64,000 nucleotides of DNA. It comes from a virus. The DNA lies in the IMG/VR virus record IMGVR_UViG_3300026457_000013, positions 1 to 64,000 of that record, one strand, 5' to 3'. Shown here piece after piece: positions 1-36,685 of the stretch. Position 1 is the first letter of the stretch. Each line of letters opens with the position of its first letter. Both the position numbers and the translations under genes were made by a program. The notes beneath the pieces are model-generated. The model did not search any database. It saw only the letters and a list, made by a program, of their open reading frames with translations, and was not told the DNA's origin.

Positions 1-204
1 TGGCCAGTTGGTAGTTTCAGCGTCCTCATCATCTTCATCTTGTTCCTTAAAGTCGCTTATAACTACAAGGCTAACACCTGTATGACTGGCTAGCTCCTCA
101 ACTAGAGCTGCTATTTTGTGTAGGAGATCAACGTGATCATAGTGATCGTCTCCATCACACTCAAAACTAACACTTAATCCTGCATGTTTAAACTCTAGTT
201 CCAT
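1..204 (-). CDS. small acidic protein, 3' end outside window (partial)
   Basis: The first 68 codons of a minus-strand gene are visible, and the frame is open to the window edge. The start ATG has an AAAGGA ribosome site. The product is acidic, with a D/E-rich stretch near the visible end (EQDEDDEDAE). It lies directly downstream of the tmRNA coding piece. I do not recognise a family. Confidence 0.7.
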   Translation of the reverse strand, partial: MELEFKHAGLSVSFECDGDDHYDHVDLLHKIAALVEELASHTGVSLVVISDFKEQDEDDEDAETTNWP

Positions 205-229
205 TTTTATCCTTTGTGTTGTGTGGCGG

Positions 230-552
230 TTGTTGGCTAATAAGGTCAACCGCCTAAACCCCAGCCTAGCTTATGCTGCTAAGGCAAATACCTCATCGTT
301 GGCATTTATTTTGTTTGCGTCTACGGCCAGCTAGTGCTAACCCTACGGCTTCTGCATTGCCGAGTTGTCCACGTCTATACTCTTTACCCCGTCGAAACCT
401 GGTCTGGCCCATCAGAAGTATACTGCACTAGCCAGTTGAATACAGCCGACCAGTCTTCCTTATCAGTGAAGTGCAATATACTTCTGGTGGACCAGGCGGG
501 AGTCGAACCCGCGTCCGCAGTACTTTTCTATTAGTTTCATACAACTATAACT
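230..552 (-). ncRNA. ssrA: circularly permuted two-piece tmRNA (SsrA)
   Basis: On the minus strand the acceptor (3') piece comes first (about 552 to 485) and the coding (5') piece second (410 to about 230). The acceptor piece has the T-arm GCGGGTTCGACTCCCGC and ends in an encoded ACCA at 485. The coding piece begins GGGCCAG, which pairs over 7 bp (one G.U) with CTGGTCC of the acceptor piece, and is followed by the tmRNA signature GGTTTCGACGGGG. The pieces also share a P2-like helix (ACAACT with AGTTGT, TAG with CTA, AGTA with TACT). The tag reading frame is 318 to 271: ANKINANDEVFALAA then TAA, ending in the protease-recognised LAA. The interval 411-484 folds into a hairpin (TATACTTCTG with CAGAAGTATA) that would be excised. 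Known role of the family: rescue of stalled ribosomes with SmpB. The exact 3' end of the coding piece is uncertain; it ends near a GGCGGTTG/CAACCGCC hairpin. Confidence 0.93.
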
Positions 553-627
553 TGGTGCTGAATGTCGGATTTGAACTGACGACCTACCGCTTACAAGGCG
601 GTTGCTCTACCACTGAGCTAATTCAGC
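553..627 (-). tRNA. tRNA-Thr (anticodon TGT)
   Basis: A cloverleaf is visible: acceptor GCTGAAT/ATTCAGC, anticodon loop TTGTAAG, T-loop TTCAAAT, and an encoded ACCA. It abuts the tmRNA acceptor piece, so both probably come from one precursor. Confidence 0.93.
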
Positions 628-2384: not shown

Positions 2385-3146
2385 TTATCTAATGTTTGTG
2401 TTTGTATTGACGGGGTTAGCGGTTAATGTGCCGCTGCCAACGTTAATTGCTTCGTTATTTGATCTGATGTTTTGTGCAAGGCCCCAAATAGCATTGTAGA
2501 GCTGACCCCACTGCTGCTGTTGTTGCTGTTGCTGTTGCATCTGGTTGATGTTGTTGGTTGTGGTAACTTCAACGCCACGAGTAGCTGCACCTGTGTCTAG
2601 CTTAGCTTGTAGCGCAATAATAGCTGCGTTAGCGTCTGTAAGTTGACGGTTTAGGGTCGCCTCATACTGTTGTGTGATAAGAGCACGAGTTTTATCACCA
2701 TCGTTAGTAATGTCTTTACTAAGCTCATAGCGATTTTCCATAACCTGCTGTTGCAGTCCATTGAGTTGTTGTGCTAGCACCATTGTACCGGCATTAACAG
2801 CTTCTTTAACGCCGTCAGTGCGGGCAGCTAAACTACTAGCAACATTATTTAACTGAGTTGTAATGCCAAGTGTTTGTGTTGCTTGGCTAGCTTCCATAGC
2901 TGCTACACTAGTAGACACGCTTTTGTCAACTTGACCAATAGCTTGCATTAAGCTCATGTTAGCTTGATCTTGCTCTGGTGGGTTACGAAGTGCAGCAGCT
3001 GCAGCAGCTCCGCCGTCATTGCCAAATAGGTTACCGTTGTTACGTAACAGTGATCCTAGGATCAGGCCGCCAATAAGACCACCACCGCCAAATAGGCCGT
3101 CGCCGCCACTCATCATCATACCAGCTGGTGTAATACTTTCTGCCAT
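2385..3146 (-). CDS. predicted virion-associated protein, Gly/Ala-rich N-terminus
   Basis: The ATG at 3146 is chosen because AAGGAG lies just upstream; an in-frame ATG at 3188 lacks one. The 253-aa product begins MAESITPAG. A glycine-rich hydrophobic stretch (FGGGGLIGGLILGSLL) and a run of alanines follow. The middle is a long heptad-like region, then poly-Gln (about ten Q near residue 205) and a tail ending NPVNTNTNIR. Together with the adjoining collagen-like gene this suggests a structural or fibre-associated protein. This is inferred from composition and context only. Confidence 0.6.
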   Translation of the reverse strand: MAESITPAGMMMSGGDGLFGGGGLIGGLILGSLLRNNGNLFGNDGGAAAAAALRNPPEQDQANMSLMQAIGQVDKSVSTSVAAMEASQATQTLGITTQLNNVASSLAARTDGVKEAVNAGTMVLAQQLNGLQQQVMENRYELSKDITNDGDKTRALITQQYEATLNRQLTDANAAIIALQAKLDTGAATRGVEVTTTNNINQMQQQQQQQQQWGQLYNAIWGLAQNIRSNNEAINVGSGTLTANPVNTNTNIR

Positions 3147-3191
3147 TTGAAACTCCTTGTTGTTATAATTATAATGGAGATTTGGCATGTG

Positions 3192-5862: not shown

Positions 5863-6873
5863 TTAACCTATGGTTTTTGCAAATTGTTGACTAGCAAGAT
5901 TCTTTTGCTTTGACTCGCACATAATGTCAGCCCAACTACTATGCGTAGCAGCCCATGAATTTACTCTGTTATTCCAGTAGTAGTCACTATGTGCTCGCAG
6001 TTTAGCTGATGTAAAACCCATGCCTGTAAGAGACTTGTAGTCGGGCAACTCATCTGCTGTGTGGTCGACAAGCACATCTTCTCTGGATACTGAATAGTGT
6101 ATAACAGGTCTAATACCTCGCCACGAATCTTTAACCACTCTAATTCGCTTGTCGTCAGGCTCAATGTACTCTCCCTTGCTGTATATCCAGTGATGATGTA
6201 TGTCTAGAACTAGGGCACAGTGTTCTACAAGTTCTAAACTATGCTCTAGACCCCAGGTATATTCTGCGTTTTCGATTGTTAATATGTTGCGTGCTTCTGG
6301 ACTTAACTTTCTAAGTGCTGCAATAATCCCTTGTGGACCACGTTTGCCTCCAATATGAACATTGCACTTAAAATCCTGAAATTTCCTACCATAGCCCATA
6401 TAACGGGCGACGTCAGTATGATACTCAAACTCAACAATACTATTATCAACAATTCCATCATTTTCACTCGCTAGTACACAAAATTGACCTGGGTGGAAGC
6501 TTAACCGTACATCTTTACCTCGTGCTATATCCCCTACTTTGCCTAGATGTGTTTCTAGGTATTTAACTACATCACTTTGAAAGTAGAACCACATCCAATC
6601 TTCATGTGTGTAAGCTGGAAATAAATCACTGCTAATGCGAAACTGACGCTGATCCCTAGGCAGGTTACCAACCCACTCTACCTGTCGCTTCAGTGTTTCA
6701 CAGTTGTGATGTATAATTGTCCAGATTTTTTCTACTGCTTTGTCCCTAGTTTGCTTGTTAAGATATGTTAGTGTTGTAGTAGTTGTATTTAGTTTTTTGT
6801 CGGCTTTGTCGTGATCTGTTTGAATCTTGCAAGCAAAGCCGATGCGTGGCTGTGTTATATCAAATGTGTGCAT
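5863..6873 (-). CDS. uvsE: UV-damage endonuclease (UvdE/UvsE family)
   Basis: At 336 aa this is typical for the family. UvdE is a TIM-barrel, metal-dependent endonuclease that nicks DNA 5' of UV photoproducts and starts an alternative excision repair. Motifs seen in order: RIGFACK at the N-terminus, RISSDLFP near 80, RLSFHPGQFCVLAS near 125, VHIGG near 170, LTIENAEYTW near 200, and DIHHHW near 224, which supplies metal-ligand histidines. The start ATG is 1 nt downstream of the small Cys-rich gene stop with no clear ribosome site, so translational coupling is likely. Confidence 0.93.
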   Translation of the reverse strand: MHTFDITQPRIGFACKIQTDHDKADKKLNTTTTTLTYLNKQTRDKAVEKIWTIIHHNCETLKRQVEWVGNLPRDQRQFRISSDLFPAYTHEDWMWFYFQSDVVKYLETHLGKVGDIARGKDVRLSFHPGQFCVLASENDGIVDNSIVEFEYHTDVARYMGYGRKFQDFKCNVHIGGKRGPQGIIAALRKLSPEARNILTIENAEYTWGLEHSLELVEHCALVLDIHHHWIYSKGEYIEPDDKRIRVVKDSWRGIRPVIHYSVSREDVLVDHTADELPDYKSLTGMGFTSAKLRAHSDYYWNNRVNSWAATHSSWADIMCESKQKNLASQQFAKTIG

Positions 6874-7950: not shown

Positions 7951-8352
7951 TTAGTTAATTGTAATCAACTTTGGTTTTTTACTCTCTGGAACAATTTGCT
8001 CTAGATAAATATTAAGCATACCGTCCTTATATTCTGCATGTTTAATTTTAATATGATCTTGTATATACAAGCTCTTCTCAAAATTACGCATTGCCAATCC
8101 TCTATACAGATAATGCTTATCTGCTTGCTCCACTTTACGACCGCGGATTGTCAATGTGTTCTCGTGAAGTTCTACTGTTAGCTCGTCCCGTCCAAAACCA
8201 GCAGCTGCTAACTCTACAAGCCAGTTGTCATCATCAAGTTTTACTACATTGTGTGGTGGATAAGTTTTAGTTGTTGCGCGAACATTATCCAGTTGATTAA
8301 AGATTCTGTCGAATCCGATTAATGCATGATTTACTAAATCTAATTGTGTCAT
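7951..8352 (-). CDS. hsp20: small heat-shock protein (Hsp20/IbpA-like)
   Basis: A 133-aa protein with an alpha-crystallin domain: VVKLDDDNWLVELAAAGFGRDELTVELHENTLTIRGRK, then FEKSLYIQDHIK and GMLNIYLEQ. It ends VPESKKPKLI. These are the class-A/IbpA features. It is an ATP-independent holdase for unfolding proteins and a recurrent gene in aquatic phages. The ribosome site AGGAG is buried in a hairpin (8358-8390) that could act as a thermosensor. It lies downstream of the outer-membrane-like gene after a 216-nt structured spacer. Confidence 0.93.
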   Translation of the reverse strand: MTQLDLVNHALIGFDRIFNQLDNVRATTKTYPPHNVVKLDDDNWLVELAAAGFGRDELTVELHENTLTIRGRKVEQADKHYLYRGLAMRNFEKSLYIQDHIKIKHAEYKDGMLNIYLEQIVPESKKPKLITIN

Positions 8353-15200: not shown

Positions 15201-15384
15201 TAGATATGTTATAGTAGAAAGCGCAAGCATTGACCGGCTAGTCTTAGAGGTCAATGCATTATTACGTGCAGGTTGGATACCACAAGGCGGTGCGGCTAAA
15301 AATGAAACGCACTATATTCAAGCAATGATTAAACTGGAGAAACATGAAGCGGTTGTTAACACTCATCACAGCACTAACTATTAG
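15193..15384 (+). CDS. DUF1737-like protein, 63 aa
   Basis: The pattern YVIVESASIDRLVLEVNALLRAGWIPQGGA then YIQAMIK matches the short DUF1737 family (beta-alpha-beta around a 'GW...GG' turn), common in phages and bacteria with no known function. Its 3' end overlaps pstS by 41 nt. Confidence 0.75.
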   Translation: MISRYVIVESASIDRLVLEVNALLRAGWIPQGGAAKNETHYIQAMIKLEKHEAVVNTHHSTNY

Positions 15385-16354
15385 TGCCACAGCACAAGCA
15401 GCAGACATTACTGGAGCAGGTGCAACATTTCCTTACCCTATTTATGCTAAATGGGCAGAGGCCTACCATAAACAAACTGGTGTTGGTTTAAACTATCAAA
15501 GCATTGGTAGTAGTGGCGGTATTCGTCAGATTAATTCAAAGACAGTAACATTTGGTGCTACAGATGCTCCGGTTAAGGGTGAGGACTTAGATAAAAATGG
15601 TCAAGTTCAGTTTCCAGCAATTATTGGTGGCACTGTACCTGTAGTCAATCTTGAGGGATTTAAGCCCAATGAACTAAGAATAACAGGTTCAGTACTTGCT
15701 GAAGTATATATGGGTATAGTCACCAAGTGGAATGATCAAAAGTTGCTGGCACTAAATCCTGGTAAAAAGTTACCAGATCAAACAATTACTGTAGTGCATC
15801 GTGCTGATGGATCGGGCACTACTTTTAACTTTACAGACTATCTTAGCAGTGTTAGCCAGGAATGGTCAACTAAAATAGGTAAAGGTGCTGCTGTTAAGTG
15901 GATTCCACAAACTGCTGTAGGCGGCAAAGGTAATGAAGGGGTAGCAGCTAATGTTACTAGAATTAAGGGTTCTATTGGCTATGTAGAGTATGCATACGTT
16001 AAAAAGAATAACATGACTAGCTTGCAACTGCAAAATAAAGCAGGTAACTGGATTAGTCCAGATGATGCAAACTTTGCAGCTGCCGCACTAGCGGCGGATT
16101 GGTTTAGTGTACCTGGTATGGGGTTGAGCATTGTTAATCAAGCTCATAAAGATGCCTGGCCAATTTCTACTGCTAGTTTTATTGTAATGTACAAGGAACC
16201 ACAGGATAAACGGGCTAGTCAAGAAGTCGTCAAGTTTTTTGACTGGGCATTTAAAAACGGTGCAAAACTAAGTGCAGAACTTGACTATGTACACCTGCCA
16301 GACAAATTGCAGCAGGATATTCGTCAACGAGTTTGGTCACAGTTTAAACACTAG
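15344..16354 (+). CDS. pstS: phosphate-binding periplasmic protein PstS
   Basis: A 336-aa PstS of full bacterial length. It has a signal peptide (MKRLLTLITALTISATAQA, cleavage before ADI). The mature start ITGAGATFPYPIYAKWAEAY and NYQSIGSSGGIRQI bear the ligand-binding Ser/Gly residues; FGATDAP and HRADGSGTTFNF provide the other phosphate-contact motifs. In bacteria PstS captures phosphate for the PstCAB transporter. Phage copies, known from marine cyanophages, are thought to raise phosphate uptake during infection. The ATG has CTGGAG upstream. No other pst genes are present. Confidence 0.96.
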   Translation: MKRLLTLITALTISATAQAADITGAGATFPYPIYAKWAEAYHKQTGVGLNYQSIGSSGGIRQINSKTVTFGATDAPVKGEDLDKNGQVQFPAIIGGTVPVVNLEGFKPNELRITGSVLAEVYMGIVTKWNDQKLLALNPGKKLPDQTITVVHRADGSGTTFNFTDYLSSVSQEWSTKIGKGAAVKWIPQTAVGGKGNEGVAANVTRIKGSIGYVEYAYVKKNNMTSLQLQNKAGNWISPDDANFAAAALAADWFSVPGMGLSIVNQAHKDAWPISTASFIVMYKEPQDKRASQEVVKFFDWAFKNGAKLSAELDYVHLPDKLQQDIRQRVWSQFKH

Positions 16355-33524: not shown

Positions 33525-34674
33525 GTGGGTAGTTGAAAAACTAAATCCTGCTCAAATACGCATTAGTGAAGGGGAGGGTAGTAGTGTAGGTAGTACACAG
33601 CCTATAAGCTATAGATTCTACTTTCGTGATATAGACTGTGTAAACACTAGTGTTAACAAGGTAGTTGCCGCTTGCGCTAGCCTTGATTACGATATAAAAG
33701 ACAAACAACATGAAGGTGTAATAGCTGGATTACGTCAAAAGACCCTAAACACACTACTTAACTTTAGACCAAATCCCTATCAGAGTGCACAGGAGTTTCG
33801 CCGCAGTTTATTCACAGATTTCTTATTAGACGGCAATGCCTTTGTGCATTTTGATGGTACATTTATGTATCACCTGCCAGCAGAAAATGTGGAAATATTA
33901 ACTGACAGCAAAACGTTTATTAGTGGCTATAAGTATAATGGCGAAATTTTGTTCCGCGAGAGTGAAGTATTCTACTTTCGTGATGTAAATTCGGAGAGTA
34001 TCTATCGCGGGCAGAGCAGGTTATCGGCTGCGCGTCAAAGTATAGATACACTATGGAACATGCACGAGTTTCAGCAAAACTTCTTTAAAAATGGTGCTAT
34101 ATTTGGCATGGCACTAACCACAGAAAATACACTGTCACAAGCTGCTAAAGAAAAAACCTATCAGTACTGGGCACAGCGATATAATCCGCGCAGTGGTGGA
34201 CGTCGCCCAATTATTCTAGATAGTGGATTGAAGCCTGTTAAATTGCAGGACAATGACTTTCAAGACCTAGACTTTGATAAAGCTATTGCACGCCACAGCG
34301 AGCGCGTAATGACAACCATAGGTGTACCGCCTATATTATTGCAGGGTGGTAACAATGCTAACATTGCCCCTAATCTTAAACTATTTTACCTGGAAACTGT
34401 ACTGCCAATCGTTAGGTTATATGTTTCCGCAGTGGAAAGATATTTTGGATATGACGTGGCAGAAGTAACCAATAATGTTAGTGCACTACAGCCAGAATTA
34501 AAAGACGTAGCAGCTTATCATAGCACACTAGTTAATGGCGGCGTTATAACTCCTAACGAAGCCCGTATAGAATTACGGTATCCAACCATAGCTGGAAATG
34601 ATACCCTAAGAATACCTGCTAACATTGCAGGTTCAGCAGCCAATCCATCAGAGGGTGGTAGGCCTAGCAACTAA
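33502..34674 (+). CDS. portal protein (HK97-like)
   Basis: A 390-aa protein matching the phage portal family. It has NTSVNKVVAACASLDYDI, NPYQSAQEFRRSLFTDFLLDGNAF and FYFRDVNSESIYRGQSRLSAAR. HSERVMTTIGVPPILLQGGNNANI, a typical C-terminal wing, then ELRYPTIAGNDTLRIP. The dodecameric portal is the DNA entry channel and terminase dock at one capsid vertex. Position between HNH/terminase and protease/capsid fits. Confidence 0.92.
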   Translation: MVLERLREWVVEKLNPAQIRISEGEGSSVGSTQPISYRFYFRDIDCVNTSVNKVVAACASLDYDIKDKQHEGVIAGLRQKTLNTLLNFRPNPYQSAQEFRRSLFTDFLLDGNAFVHFDGTFMYHLPAENVEILTDSKTFISGYKYNGEILFRESEVFYFRDVNSESIYRGQSRLSAARQSIDTLWNMHEFQQNFFKNGAIFGMALTTENTLSQAAKEKTYQYWAQRYNPRSGGRRPIILDSGLKPVKLQDNDFQDLDFDKAIARHSERVMTTIGVPPILLQGGNNANIAPNLKLFYLETVLPIVRLYVSAVERYFGYDVAEVTNNVSALQPELKDVAAYHSTLVNGGVITPNEARIELRYPTIAGNDTLRIPANIAGSAANPSEGGRPSN

Positions 34675-34684
34675 GAGGAGTAAG

Positions 34685-36685
34685 ATGGATATAAAAAACA
34701 AAGTACTCTATTTTGACAGCAAGTTTACTGCCAAGGCTGCCGGCGAGGACGATGACAGTATCATGATTGAAGGTTATGCTTCTACTAATGATCGGGATCG
34801 TCAAGGCGATGTAGTGCCAGCAGGAGTTTGGAAGTCAGGTATGGTAAACTACCTGAAGAATCCAATCATCTTAGCATATCATAATCACACAATGCCAATT
34901 GGCAAAATGGTTGATTATAAAGCTGATGAGCATGGACTGTGGATTAAAGCACAGATTCCCAGTGAAGTTGGCGATATTTACAAGTTGATCAAAAAGGGTA
35001 TATTAAGCGCATTTAGTATTGGGTTTAGGGTCAAAGATGCTGAGTATGAGCAGGCCAGTGAAACCTTTATGATTAAAGATCTAGAACTACACGAAATCAG
35101 TGTAGTTAGTGTACCTGCAAATCAAAACACACTATTTAGTTTAGCCAAGGCATTTGATAGTGCCCAAGAGTTCGAGTTATTTAAACAGCAATTTGCCGAT
35201 GTTAGCGAATCAGCTAAAGGGCTAGAGTCCTCTACAAACGCAAATAGCGAAACCAAAAAGGAATGGAACATGGATCCAAAAGAGTTAGAAAAATTATTGG
35301 CCGACGCTGCTGCTAAGGCTGCTGCTGAAACAGCACGTGCTGTTGTAGAGGCTCAAACTAAAGCTGCTGAAGAAGCGCAGCGTAAAGCTGATGAAGAAGC
35401 ACAGCTACAAGCTAAAATTAAGGCTGCTGTTAGCGCAGTTCAAACAGTTGACACAGGTGCAGAAAAGCTATTAGCTGAAGTTGAAAAGCGCTTAGCCGAG
35501 CAAGCTGACAGCCACAAGAGCGCCCTAGAAGGTCTAGAGAGTGCACTACGTGAAAAAGCTGCTGAGCTAGAAGCTATTCAAAAGAGCCGTATGCAGTTTA
35601 GTGATGTTAAGAGCAGCGACGGTGGTGCTACATACGCAGAAAAAGAAGCAGCTGTATTTATCAGCAAGATCACTAAAAAGCCTATCGAAGAAACCAAGTA
35701 TGCCAAGAGCCTAGTACAAAAGTACGCTAGTGGCGGTACAGCTGGTGCTGCTGGATCGGGTGGTGGAGCAGGTGGTGCAGTTCGCCTACCAGGTCAAGTT
35801 TGGGAACTAGAAGTTAGCACCAACATGGAAAACGAGATTCGTCGTCAGCTAGTTGTTGCTGGTACAATCCGTCAGATCAACATGCCACAGCCTTTCATGA
35901 AGCTGCCTATCAATCCAGATGCTGGTGCAGATGCAACCTGGGTAGCAAACAGTGATTTTGGTGCTGCAGCTAGCAGTGGTACAGCTCGCACACATGCGCT
36001 CAAAGACATTGAGATCAGCAGCGCTAAGCTAGCTACCAAAGAGTACATCGCCTTTGAAGAAGAGGAAGATGGTCTTATTGCCCTAGTACCTATCATCCGC
36101 GATGCAATCACACGTCGTATGGCTAAGACACTAGACAAGTCTATGCTCCTAGGTAATGACGTTGGTGCTACAACATATGCGGCTGGTATCAATGGTCTAG
36201 CATTTTATGATGGTAGCGCTACAAGCAGCCCAACAGTTGCAGTTGGTGGTACTGGAGCAACAGGATTTACATTTGCTAAATTCCAGGCTGCTCGTCGTGC
36301 ATTAGGTGTTTGGGGCTTAGAGCCTAGCGAATTAATCTGCTTTGTTAGCCAAGCAGCATATTATGATCTACTAGAAGATGCTACTTTCCAAAGCACAGAC
36401 AAGATTAGTGAGTCACGTAACACACTAATTACTGGTCAAGTTGGACTAATCGCCCAAACTCCAGTTGTTGTTAGTGCACAAATGACAGGTGCAGCTGCTA
36501 ACGATGCACTAGCCGTTATAGTTAACCCACGCAACTTTGTTGTTGGTAATCATCGTGCAATGCGTATTGACACAGATGACGAAGTTATCAATCAGCGTCG
36601 TGTTATCGTTGCTAGTATGCGTATCGCTATGAGCCGCTTAACAAGCAATGAAGGTAGTGGTGTTGTAACAGTTCGTTACGTTTAA
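34685..36685 (+). CDS. fused prohead protease, scaffold and major capsid protein
   Basis: The ATG at 34685 follows AGAGGAG. The 666-aa polyprotein has three parts. Residues 1-~170 are an HK97 (S78) prohead protease (IEGYASTNDRDRQGDVV, ILAYHNHTMPIGK with catalytic His, LSAFSIGFRV with catalytic Ser, HEISVVSVPAN). Residues ~195-310 are an Ala/Glu-rich coiled coil like the HK97 delta/scaffold domain. Residues ~345-666 are the HK97-fold major capsid (RLPGQVWELEVSTNMENEIRR, DAITRRMAKTLDKSMLLG, VVSAQMTG, VVTVRYV). Normally protease and capsid are separate genes. A possible internal start at 35270 (see findings) could make capsid without protease. Confidence 0.9.
   Translation: MDIKNKVLYFDSKFTAKAAGEDDDSIMIEGYASTNDRDRQGDVVPAGVWKSGMVNYLKNPIILAYHNHTMPIGKMVDYKADEHGLWIKAQIPSEVGDIYKLIKKGILSAFSIGFRVKDAEYEQASETFMIKDLELHEISVVSVPANQNTLFSLAKAFDSAQEFELFKQQFADVSESAKGLESSTNANSETKKEWNMDPKELEKLLADAAAKAAAETARAVVEAQTKAAEEAQRKADEEAQLQAKIKAAVSAVQTVDTGAEKLLAEVEKRLAEQADSHKSALEGLESALREKAAELEAIQKSRMQFSDVKSSDGGATYAEKEAAVFISKITKKPIEETKYAKSLVQKYASGGTAGAAGSGGGAGGAVRLPGQVWELEVSTNMENEIRRQLVVAGTIRQINMPQPFMKLPINPDAGADATWVANSDFGAAASSGTARTHALKDIEISSAKLATKEYIAFEEEEDGLIALVPIIRDAITRRMAKTLDKSMLLGNDVGATTYAAGINGLAFYDGSATSSPTVAVGGTGATGFTFAKFQAARRALGVWGLEPSELICFVSQAAYYDLLEDATFQSTDKISESRNTLITGQVGLIAQTPVVVSAQMTGAAANDALAVIVNPRNFVVGNHRAMRIDTDDEVINQRRVIVASMRIAMSRLTSNEGSGVVTVRYV

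Follow-up and report, generated by a model that had tools for sequence, protein, structure and literature searches.

The minus strand of the window, the 64,000-base stretch of viral DNA analysed here, carries at positions 225-552 a tmRNA gene that is complete and circularly permuted (two-piece); the record comes from an uncultured T5-like aquatic phage whose lineage is widespread. The preferred reading, to which we give a probability of roughly 85%, is that the gene encodes a working and selected tmRNA of the betaproteobacterial type (beta-type) which supplies ribosome rescue during infection. Phage permuted tmRNAs have already been published for marine phages, and the element is a new case of a known gene type; the surprising part is a probable gene slot in the middle of the gene, which is a feature of relatives at the same locus and of other phages, not of the window itself.

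Structure of the gene

The first-pass annotation of this DNA had proposed a circularly permuted phage tmRNA with the acceptor half first and had suggested a search with permuted covariance models. This search, performed with Rfam, yielded RF04321 (tmRNA_permuted) with 114 bits against a gathering threshold of 47 (E 1.7e-21; positions 546-271, full model 1-213) and RF01850 (beta_tmRNA) with 96.5 bits against a threshold of 84, the latter being the best of the older permuted models and the best match within the clan. The subtype is betaproteobacterial (beta-type, RF01850). A permuted tmRNA was also predicted by ARAGORN (180-577, minus strand) and the record carries phage genes, which bears the proposal out. 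The minus strand folds with a z-score of -5.45, and 0 of 100 shuffles were equally stable.

The acceptor and T arm, the signature, P2 and a tag, all listed in the annotation, were located as follows (all on the minus strand). The acceptor piece (485-552, 68 nt) was delimited from the RF04321 alignment, the sequence and the pair count. It comprises the 5′ strand of the outer P2 (546-541), which pairs with 368-363 at 6 of 6 positions, the T arm (512-496) and the acceptor 3′ strand CUGGUCC (495-489), which pairs with GGGCCAG (410-404) at 7 of 7 positions, and it ends with A488 (A73) and an encoded CCA (487-485). The intervening segment (411-484, 74 nt), presumed to be excised, is a hairpin in which 484-470 pairs with 429-415 at 15 of 15 positions; it is closed by a UGAU box immediately before the coding piece. 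The coding piece (225-410, about 185 nt) starts at G410 with the acceptor 5′ strand GGGCCAG, which includes the G of G3-U70, and continues with GGUUUCGAC, the inner and outer P2 strands, the tag and a 3′ hairpin. The signature GGTTTCGAC is found at 399-391, the inner P2 at 391-385 and the 3′ side of the outer P2 at 368-363. An AUAAAU box (304-309), with U at -5 and A at -4, stands before the resume codon and is kept in phage and bacterial copies. The tag frame GCC...TAA (271-303), as placed by ARAGORN and by alignment to the beta_tmRNA consensus, encodes ANDEVFALAA (303-274) and ends with a stop codon (273-271). Downstream of it (225-263), a 3′ hairpin is formed by 254-248 and 231-225 (58.8% of alignment cells paired, in a poorly aligned region), together with a likely pseudoknot between UGGGGU (263-258) and ACCUUA (246-241; 85.7% of cells paired). 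All AlaRS identity elements are present, namely G3-U70 (GGG 410-408 with UCC 491-489), A488 and the CCA at 487-485.

Source phage and related tmRNAs

The source, IMG/VR virus record IMGVR_UViG_3300026457_000013, comprises 82,252 bases and is a fragment. It is identified as phage by a terminase, a portal protein and a capsid protein fused to an S78 protease, and the tail and terminase relatives are T5-like (cultured Vibrio and enterobacterial phages, 31-48% identity). The fused protein of 686 aa (34625-36685, plus strand) contains prohead protease (S78) and HK97-type capsid domains. Among the other genes carried by the phage are those for a periplasmic-binding-type protein (PBP_like_2; 15344-16354, plus strand), a UvdE UV endonuclease (5863-6873, minus strand) and an Hsp20 chaperone (7951-8352, minus strand).

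ARAGORN found 11 tRNA genes in the window, one of which, tRNA-Thr(TGT) (553-627, minus strand), ends with an encoded CCA (555-553) directly abutting the acceptor piece. Judged from this arrangement, tRNA-Thr and the permuted tmRNA are probably co-transcribed, so that 3′ processing of the tRNA-Thr would create the 5′ end of the acceptor piece. The tRNA-CCA-AGTTAT junction is common to seven further loci (L204, L205, L206, L208, L225, L226 and L228) and is also present in Stenotrophomonas phage Marzo, there after tRNA-Leu. The next gene downstream (1-204, minus strand; ATG 204-202, Shine-Dalgarno sequence AAAGG 215-211) runs off the contig start. A search for a sigma-70 promoter gave no clear candidate (4 matches, 3.8 expected).

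Because the contigs of terminase relatives may miss the locus, many of them ending near the terminase (44 such records yielded no tmRNA), the window gene at 2385-3188 was used as the query for neighbourhoods instead. Among the 80 neighbourhoods retrieved, a tmRNA lies near the homologue of this gene in ten loci, in seven of them directly after tRNA-Thr. The Rfam cut-off was exceeded in 29 of 47 related or pattern-found records, and a blastn comparison of the coding piece with cultured phages gave zero matches. Phage copies had been called rare in the first-pass annotation, which the counts contradict: 53 two-piece phage tmRNAs had been reported by 2022 (PMC9004378), and phage permuted tmRNAs are judged common because each of three pattern scans of viral contigs, with three different spacer lengths, gave at least 120 permuted-tmRNA stretches. 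A published count lists 79 unique phage tmRNA sequences in a database.

The annotation had also proposed a comparison with host-lineage tmRNAs as a test of acquisition. No acquisition is visible among the copies sampled: the mature RNA of the window shares 80-97% identity with those of the nearest phages, as against at most 74% for the Burkholderiales copies. The permuted cut-off was exceeded in 14 of 250 Burkholderiales genomes. The exact tag preceded by AAAT had zero matches in genome contigs, and a search with a 16-base pattern returned mostly chance matches, so that neither pointed to a host lineage. In a quick tree built from the mature pieces, the window falls within a supported set of T5-like copies; deeper origins are not separated in it.

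A side observation concerns the Gallionellaceae genome G092 (L465:9747-10730), in which a standard ssrA (tag ANDEKYALAA) is followed, about 280 bases further along the bacterial chromosome, by a permuted ssrA (tag ANDENFAMAA); this pair is possibly an intermediate or a transferred copy.

With the betaproteobacterial two-piece tmRNA (RF01850; RF04321) the window shares the gene order, the acceptor stem with G3-U70, the T arm, P2, the resume region AUAAAU|GCC AAC GAU GA, the 3′ hairpin with a CCUU-type loop and the hairpin of the intervening segment. It differs in an extra hairpin upstream of the tag, and identity is 74% at best. The intervening segment measures 57-143 nt in phages (74 nt in the window) but 24-33 nt in seven of the eight Burkholderiales copies sampled, a comparison restricted to Rfam-found copies because pattern scans fix the length and are hence biased. 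The ssrA of the OM43 methylophage Melnitz (PMC9004378) is likewise a two-piece tmRNA on an aquatic lytic phage, but it is of the alphaproteobacterial type and accompanied by a glutamine riboswitch, whereas that of the window is of the beta type in a T5-like phage. Beta-type permuted tmRNAs are also found in Stenotrophomonas phages (Menderavirus: Marzo, Yut2 and Bhz51; 119 bits in Marzo), where the gene again adjoins tRNA-Thr and the acceptor piece directly follows a tRNA CCA; some GenBank records annotate this copy as tmRNA or SsrA. These phages belong to a different group with T4-like neighbours, their tag is VAANDDSYTVRIAA or ANDDSYTVRIAA, and their tRNA-Thr lies downstream of the tmRNA, whereas it lies upstream in the window. 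Mycobacteriophage tmRNAs are also phage-borne, those of the Bxz1 group being standard and that of DS6A tRNA-like only; the DS6A copy lacks the tag part, unlike that of the window. The tmRNAs of the Bxz1 group are not permuted.

Conservation, proposed function and tag

The pairs of the named structure were counted in 24 aligned phage copies and compared with shuffled and slid-partner controls. Of all cells, 91.2% were paired, as against 79.3% after shuffling and 42-47% with the partners slid. Changes on both sides occurred in 39 of 58 pairs, and the covariation score was 0.381 as compared to 0.178 for shuffles, 0 of 500 of which reached the real value. In the three helices that join the halves, pairing was 100% (acceptor), 100% (outer P2) and 98.6% (inner P2); 11 of their 19 pairs show changes on both sides, and G3-U70 was retained in 24 of 24 copies. 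Loss of this pairing in related phages had been named beforehand as a refuting result; the pairing survives, with compensatory changes. The helix of the intervening segment was 95% paired, with double changes in nine of its ten pairs, and a terminal helix of at least 8 pairs was present in 90% of 121 distinct segments as against 2.4% of shuffles. Because the helices across the halves stay paired through many compensatory changes, the permuted gene is under selection.

With identity, anatomy, cross-piece pairing, intact tag and synteny in relatives observed as described, the following course is proposed from the anatomy and by analogy with known permuted tmRNAs. One precursor transcript would contain tRNA-Thr and the permuted tmRNA, and the intervening segment would fold as a hairpin extending the acceptor stem. 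Cleavage by RNase P ahead of G410, together with 3′ processing at the end of the encoded CCA (485), would release the 68-nt acceptor piece and the coding piece of about 185 nt, which would be held together by the acceptor stem and P2. The RNA would be charged by the host AlaRS via G3-U70 and brought by SmpB to ribosomes that have stalled on broken messages. The SmpB would have to come from the host, since a phage-encoded SmpB (PF01668) was found in 0 of 22 phage records, all of them possibly fragments (10 of 14 control genomes were positive). ANDEVFALAA would then be added to the stalled products and recognised by host proteases. The likely benefit would be that a rescue tmRNA and phage tRNAs are kept supplied while host transcription and host RNA fail.

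Instead of rescue, the gene might serve the re-tagging or selective degradation of host proteins, with tags tuned by swapping. The targeting of host proteins was raised by the authors of the Melnitz study (PMC9004378), and near-identical genes do differ in the tag and 3′ module (mostly ANDEVFALAA, but ANDEHFYQEFKLVA in L206 and ANDDYFYQDLKLAA in L225). The tags are still ordinary degradation tags, however, and nothing points to a choice of target, so that we regard this explanation as improbable. It is considerably less probable that the gene is a captured host gene hitch-hiking in a tRNA cluster and useless to the phage: the tmRNA genes do sit in a mobile, tRNA-rich stretch and are missing from the records of some relatives, but every joining helix shows compensatory changes across divergent phages, the tags are intact, and the sampled bacterial copies are more distant than the phage copies. 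A decoy role, in which SmpB is titrated or trans-translation of the host is blocked (the proposal made for mycobacteriophage DS6A), is very unlikely, too; a phage tmRNA without a tag frame is known to inhibit tmRNA when expressed (PMC11915505, PMC4131195), whereas the tag frame, stop codon and resume box of the window are intact and conserved. A functional tmRNA supplying rescue thus remains the preferred reading.

Based on sequence comparison, the resume codon is assigned to GCC at 303 and the tag to the ten residues ANDEVFALAA. The local rule for resume codons, U at -5 and A at -4 (PMC2481249), cannot by itself separate the candidate starts in the window sequence because U-A at -5/-4 precedes both GCC 303 and GCA 318. 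Among 93 distinct upstream sequences, 83 keep U(-5) and 85 keep A(-4) before a GCN-AAY-GAY start. In 22 copies a GCAAA does occur upstream within 40 nt but is out of frame, and in 38 of 107 there is none within that distance. In L226, a close and near-identical gene with the same tag, the corresponding GCA AAT TGA places an in-frame stop in the proposed extension, and the beta model (RF01850) aligns the resume codon at GCC 303. Resumption at GCA 318, which would give the 15-residue tag ANKINANDEVFALAA of the first-pass annotation, is therefore hardly credible: the UAGAC before GCA 318 also satisfies the local rule and the frame is open in the window copy, but the extension is interrupted in L226, the start box is not retained in L207, L277 and L005, many copies lack the upstream GCA or have it in another frame, and the beta consensus begins the tag at GCC.

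Most tags in related phages are of the ordinary degradation type, with LAA or something similar at the end. In L206 (5608-6017) and L225 (8292-8681) the tag and 3′ hairpin have been swapped as a module in a gene otherwise near-identical to that of the window. Phage permuted tmRNAs repeatedly have predicted tags that are very long, about 28-31 residues (e.g., ANADTFDFSAMSFTGNTVRGAANESRFALAA) as against the usual 10 (L021, L030, L063, L076, L609, L753 and others).

The intervening segment as a probable gene slot

In close relatives, some parts of the tmRNA gene have been exchanged and the remainder kept. Compared with the window, L205 is 93% identical on the acceptor side (including tRNA-Thr) and 92% identical in the coding piece, but its intervening segment measures 143 nt as against 74 nt and contains a 52-codon open frame that has a Shine-Dalgarno sequence (L205:7652-7818). 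As judged from these frames, the slot is empty in the window and filled in this close relative. An open TTG frame in the 74-nt segment of the window was considered as a gene and rejected, as it has no ribosome-binding site, its openness is at chance level and segments below 85 nt show no excess of led frames.

A total of 313 distinct phage segments was collected, and open reading frames that span 25 codons or more and are led by a ribosome-binding site were counted in them and in shuffles of the same segments; the criteria were set after the first examples had been seen, and the data are metagenomic fragments. Led frames were at chance level in segments of 50-85 nt (2 of 121; 5.6 expected), whereas they were found in 14 of 30 segments of 125-145 nt (1.35 expected) and 17 of 24 segments of 145-200 nt (0.6 expected). 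Segments longer than about 95 nt often carry a frame of 25-50 codons with the Shine-Dalgarno sequence right after the encoded CCA. The 49 led frames in segments of at least 85 nt (those of L614, L633, L660, L674, L514, L609 and L604 among them) fall into 29 unrelated clusters. In 37 of the 49, the start lies 11 or 12 nt downstream of the CCA. The stop codon is the UGA within the UGAU box in 17, falls in the mature coding piece in 24 and comes earlier in 8. Weighted substitutions by codon position were 74 at third positions versus 52 and 34 at the others, and pN/pS was 0.37 in frame versus 0.78 and 1.4 in the other frames, in within-cluster comparisons that share ancestry. Purifying selection was thus seen in the coding frame only. 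The slot frame of L738 matches PHROG 13558 (E 9.8e-13) as well as small reading frames from 56 records of cultured phages, which indicates that real phage genes have entered the slot, and L743 holds a homologue of the L205 frame. The tmRNAs around slot frames were above the Rfam threshold in 12 of 12 cases tested, and the hairpin, whose 5′ arm contains the Shine-Dalgarno sequence, is retained around them. Of 399 Burkholderiales genomes, eight had short segments, and the single long match was not tmRNA-like.

In one virus contig (L481:1485-1650 = L055:6851-7016), a complete tRNA-Asn(GTT) takes the place of the intervening segment; the surrounding tmRNA has a tag beginning ANNIDTAANNIVAFSRL, resembling cyanobacterial tags.

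From the reading frames and their substitution patterns, it is likely that the slots carry translated genes, and likewise that the segment of phage permuted tmRNAs is a cargo slot for small genes, whose production is possibly coupled to tmRNA maturation. A regulatory coupling of this kind is speculative and rather doubtful; it is suggested because the processing hairpin has the Shine-Dalgarno sequence as its 5′ arm. Of the 49 frames, 17 end within the UGAU box at the predicted RNase P site; where the frame stops inside the mature coding piece (24), cleavage by RNase P would leave a nonstop message, itself a substrate of tmRNA. This logic resembles that of ArfA. The open-licence papers searched contained no mention of genes within the segment between the halves of a two-piece tmRNA.

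A widespread, uncultured T5-like lineage thus probably keeps a ribosome-rescue RNA of its own, with the tag now corrected to ANDEVFALAA. In phages, the stretch that two-piece tmRNA precursors have been assumed to discard often appears to be a small gene, or even a tRNA. If these genes are translated, one transcript would give rise both to a rescue RNA and to a small protein whose expression would compete with, or depend on, the processing of the tmRNA.
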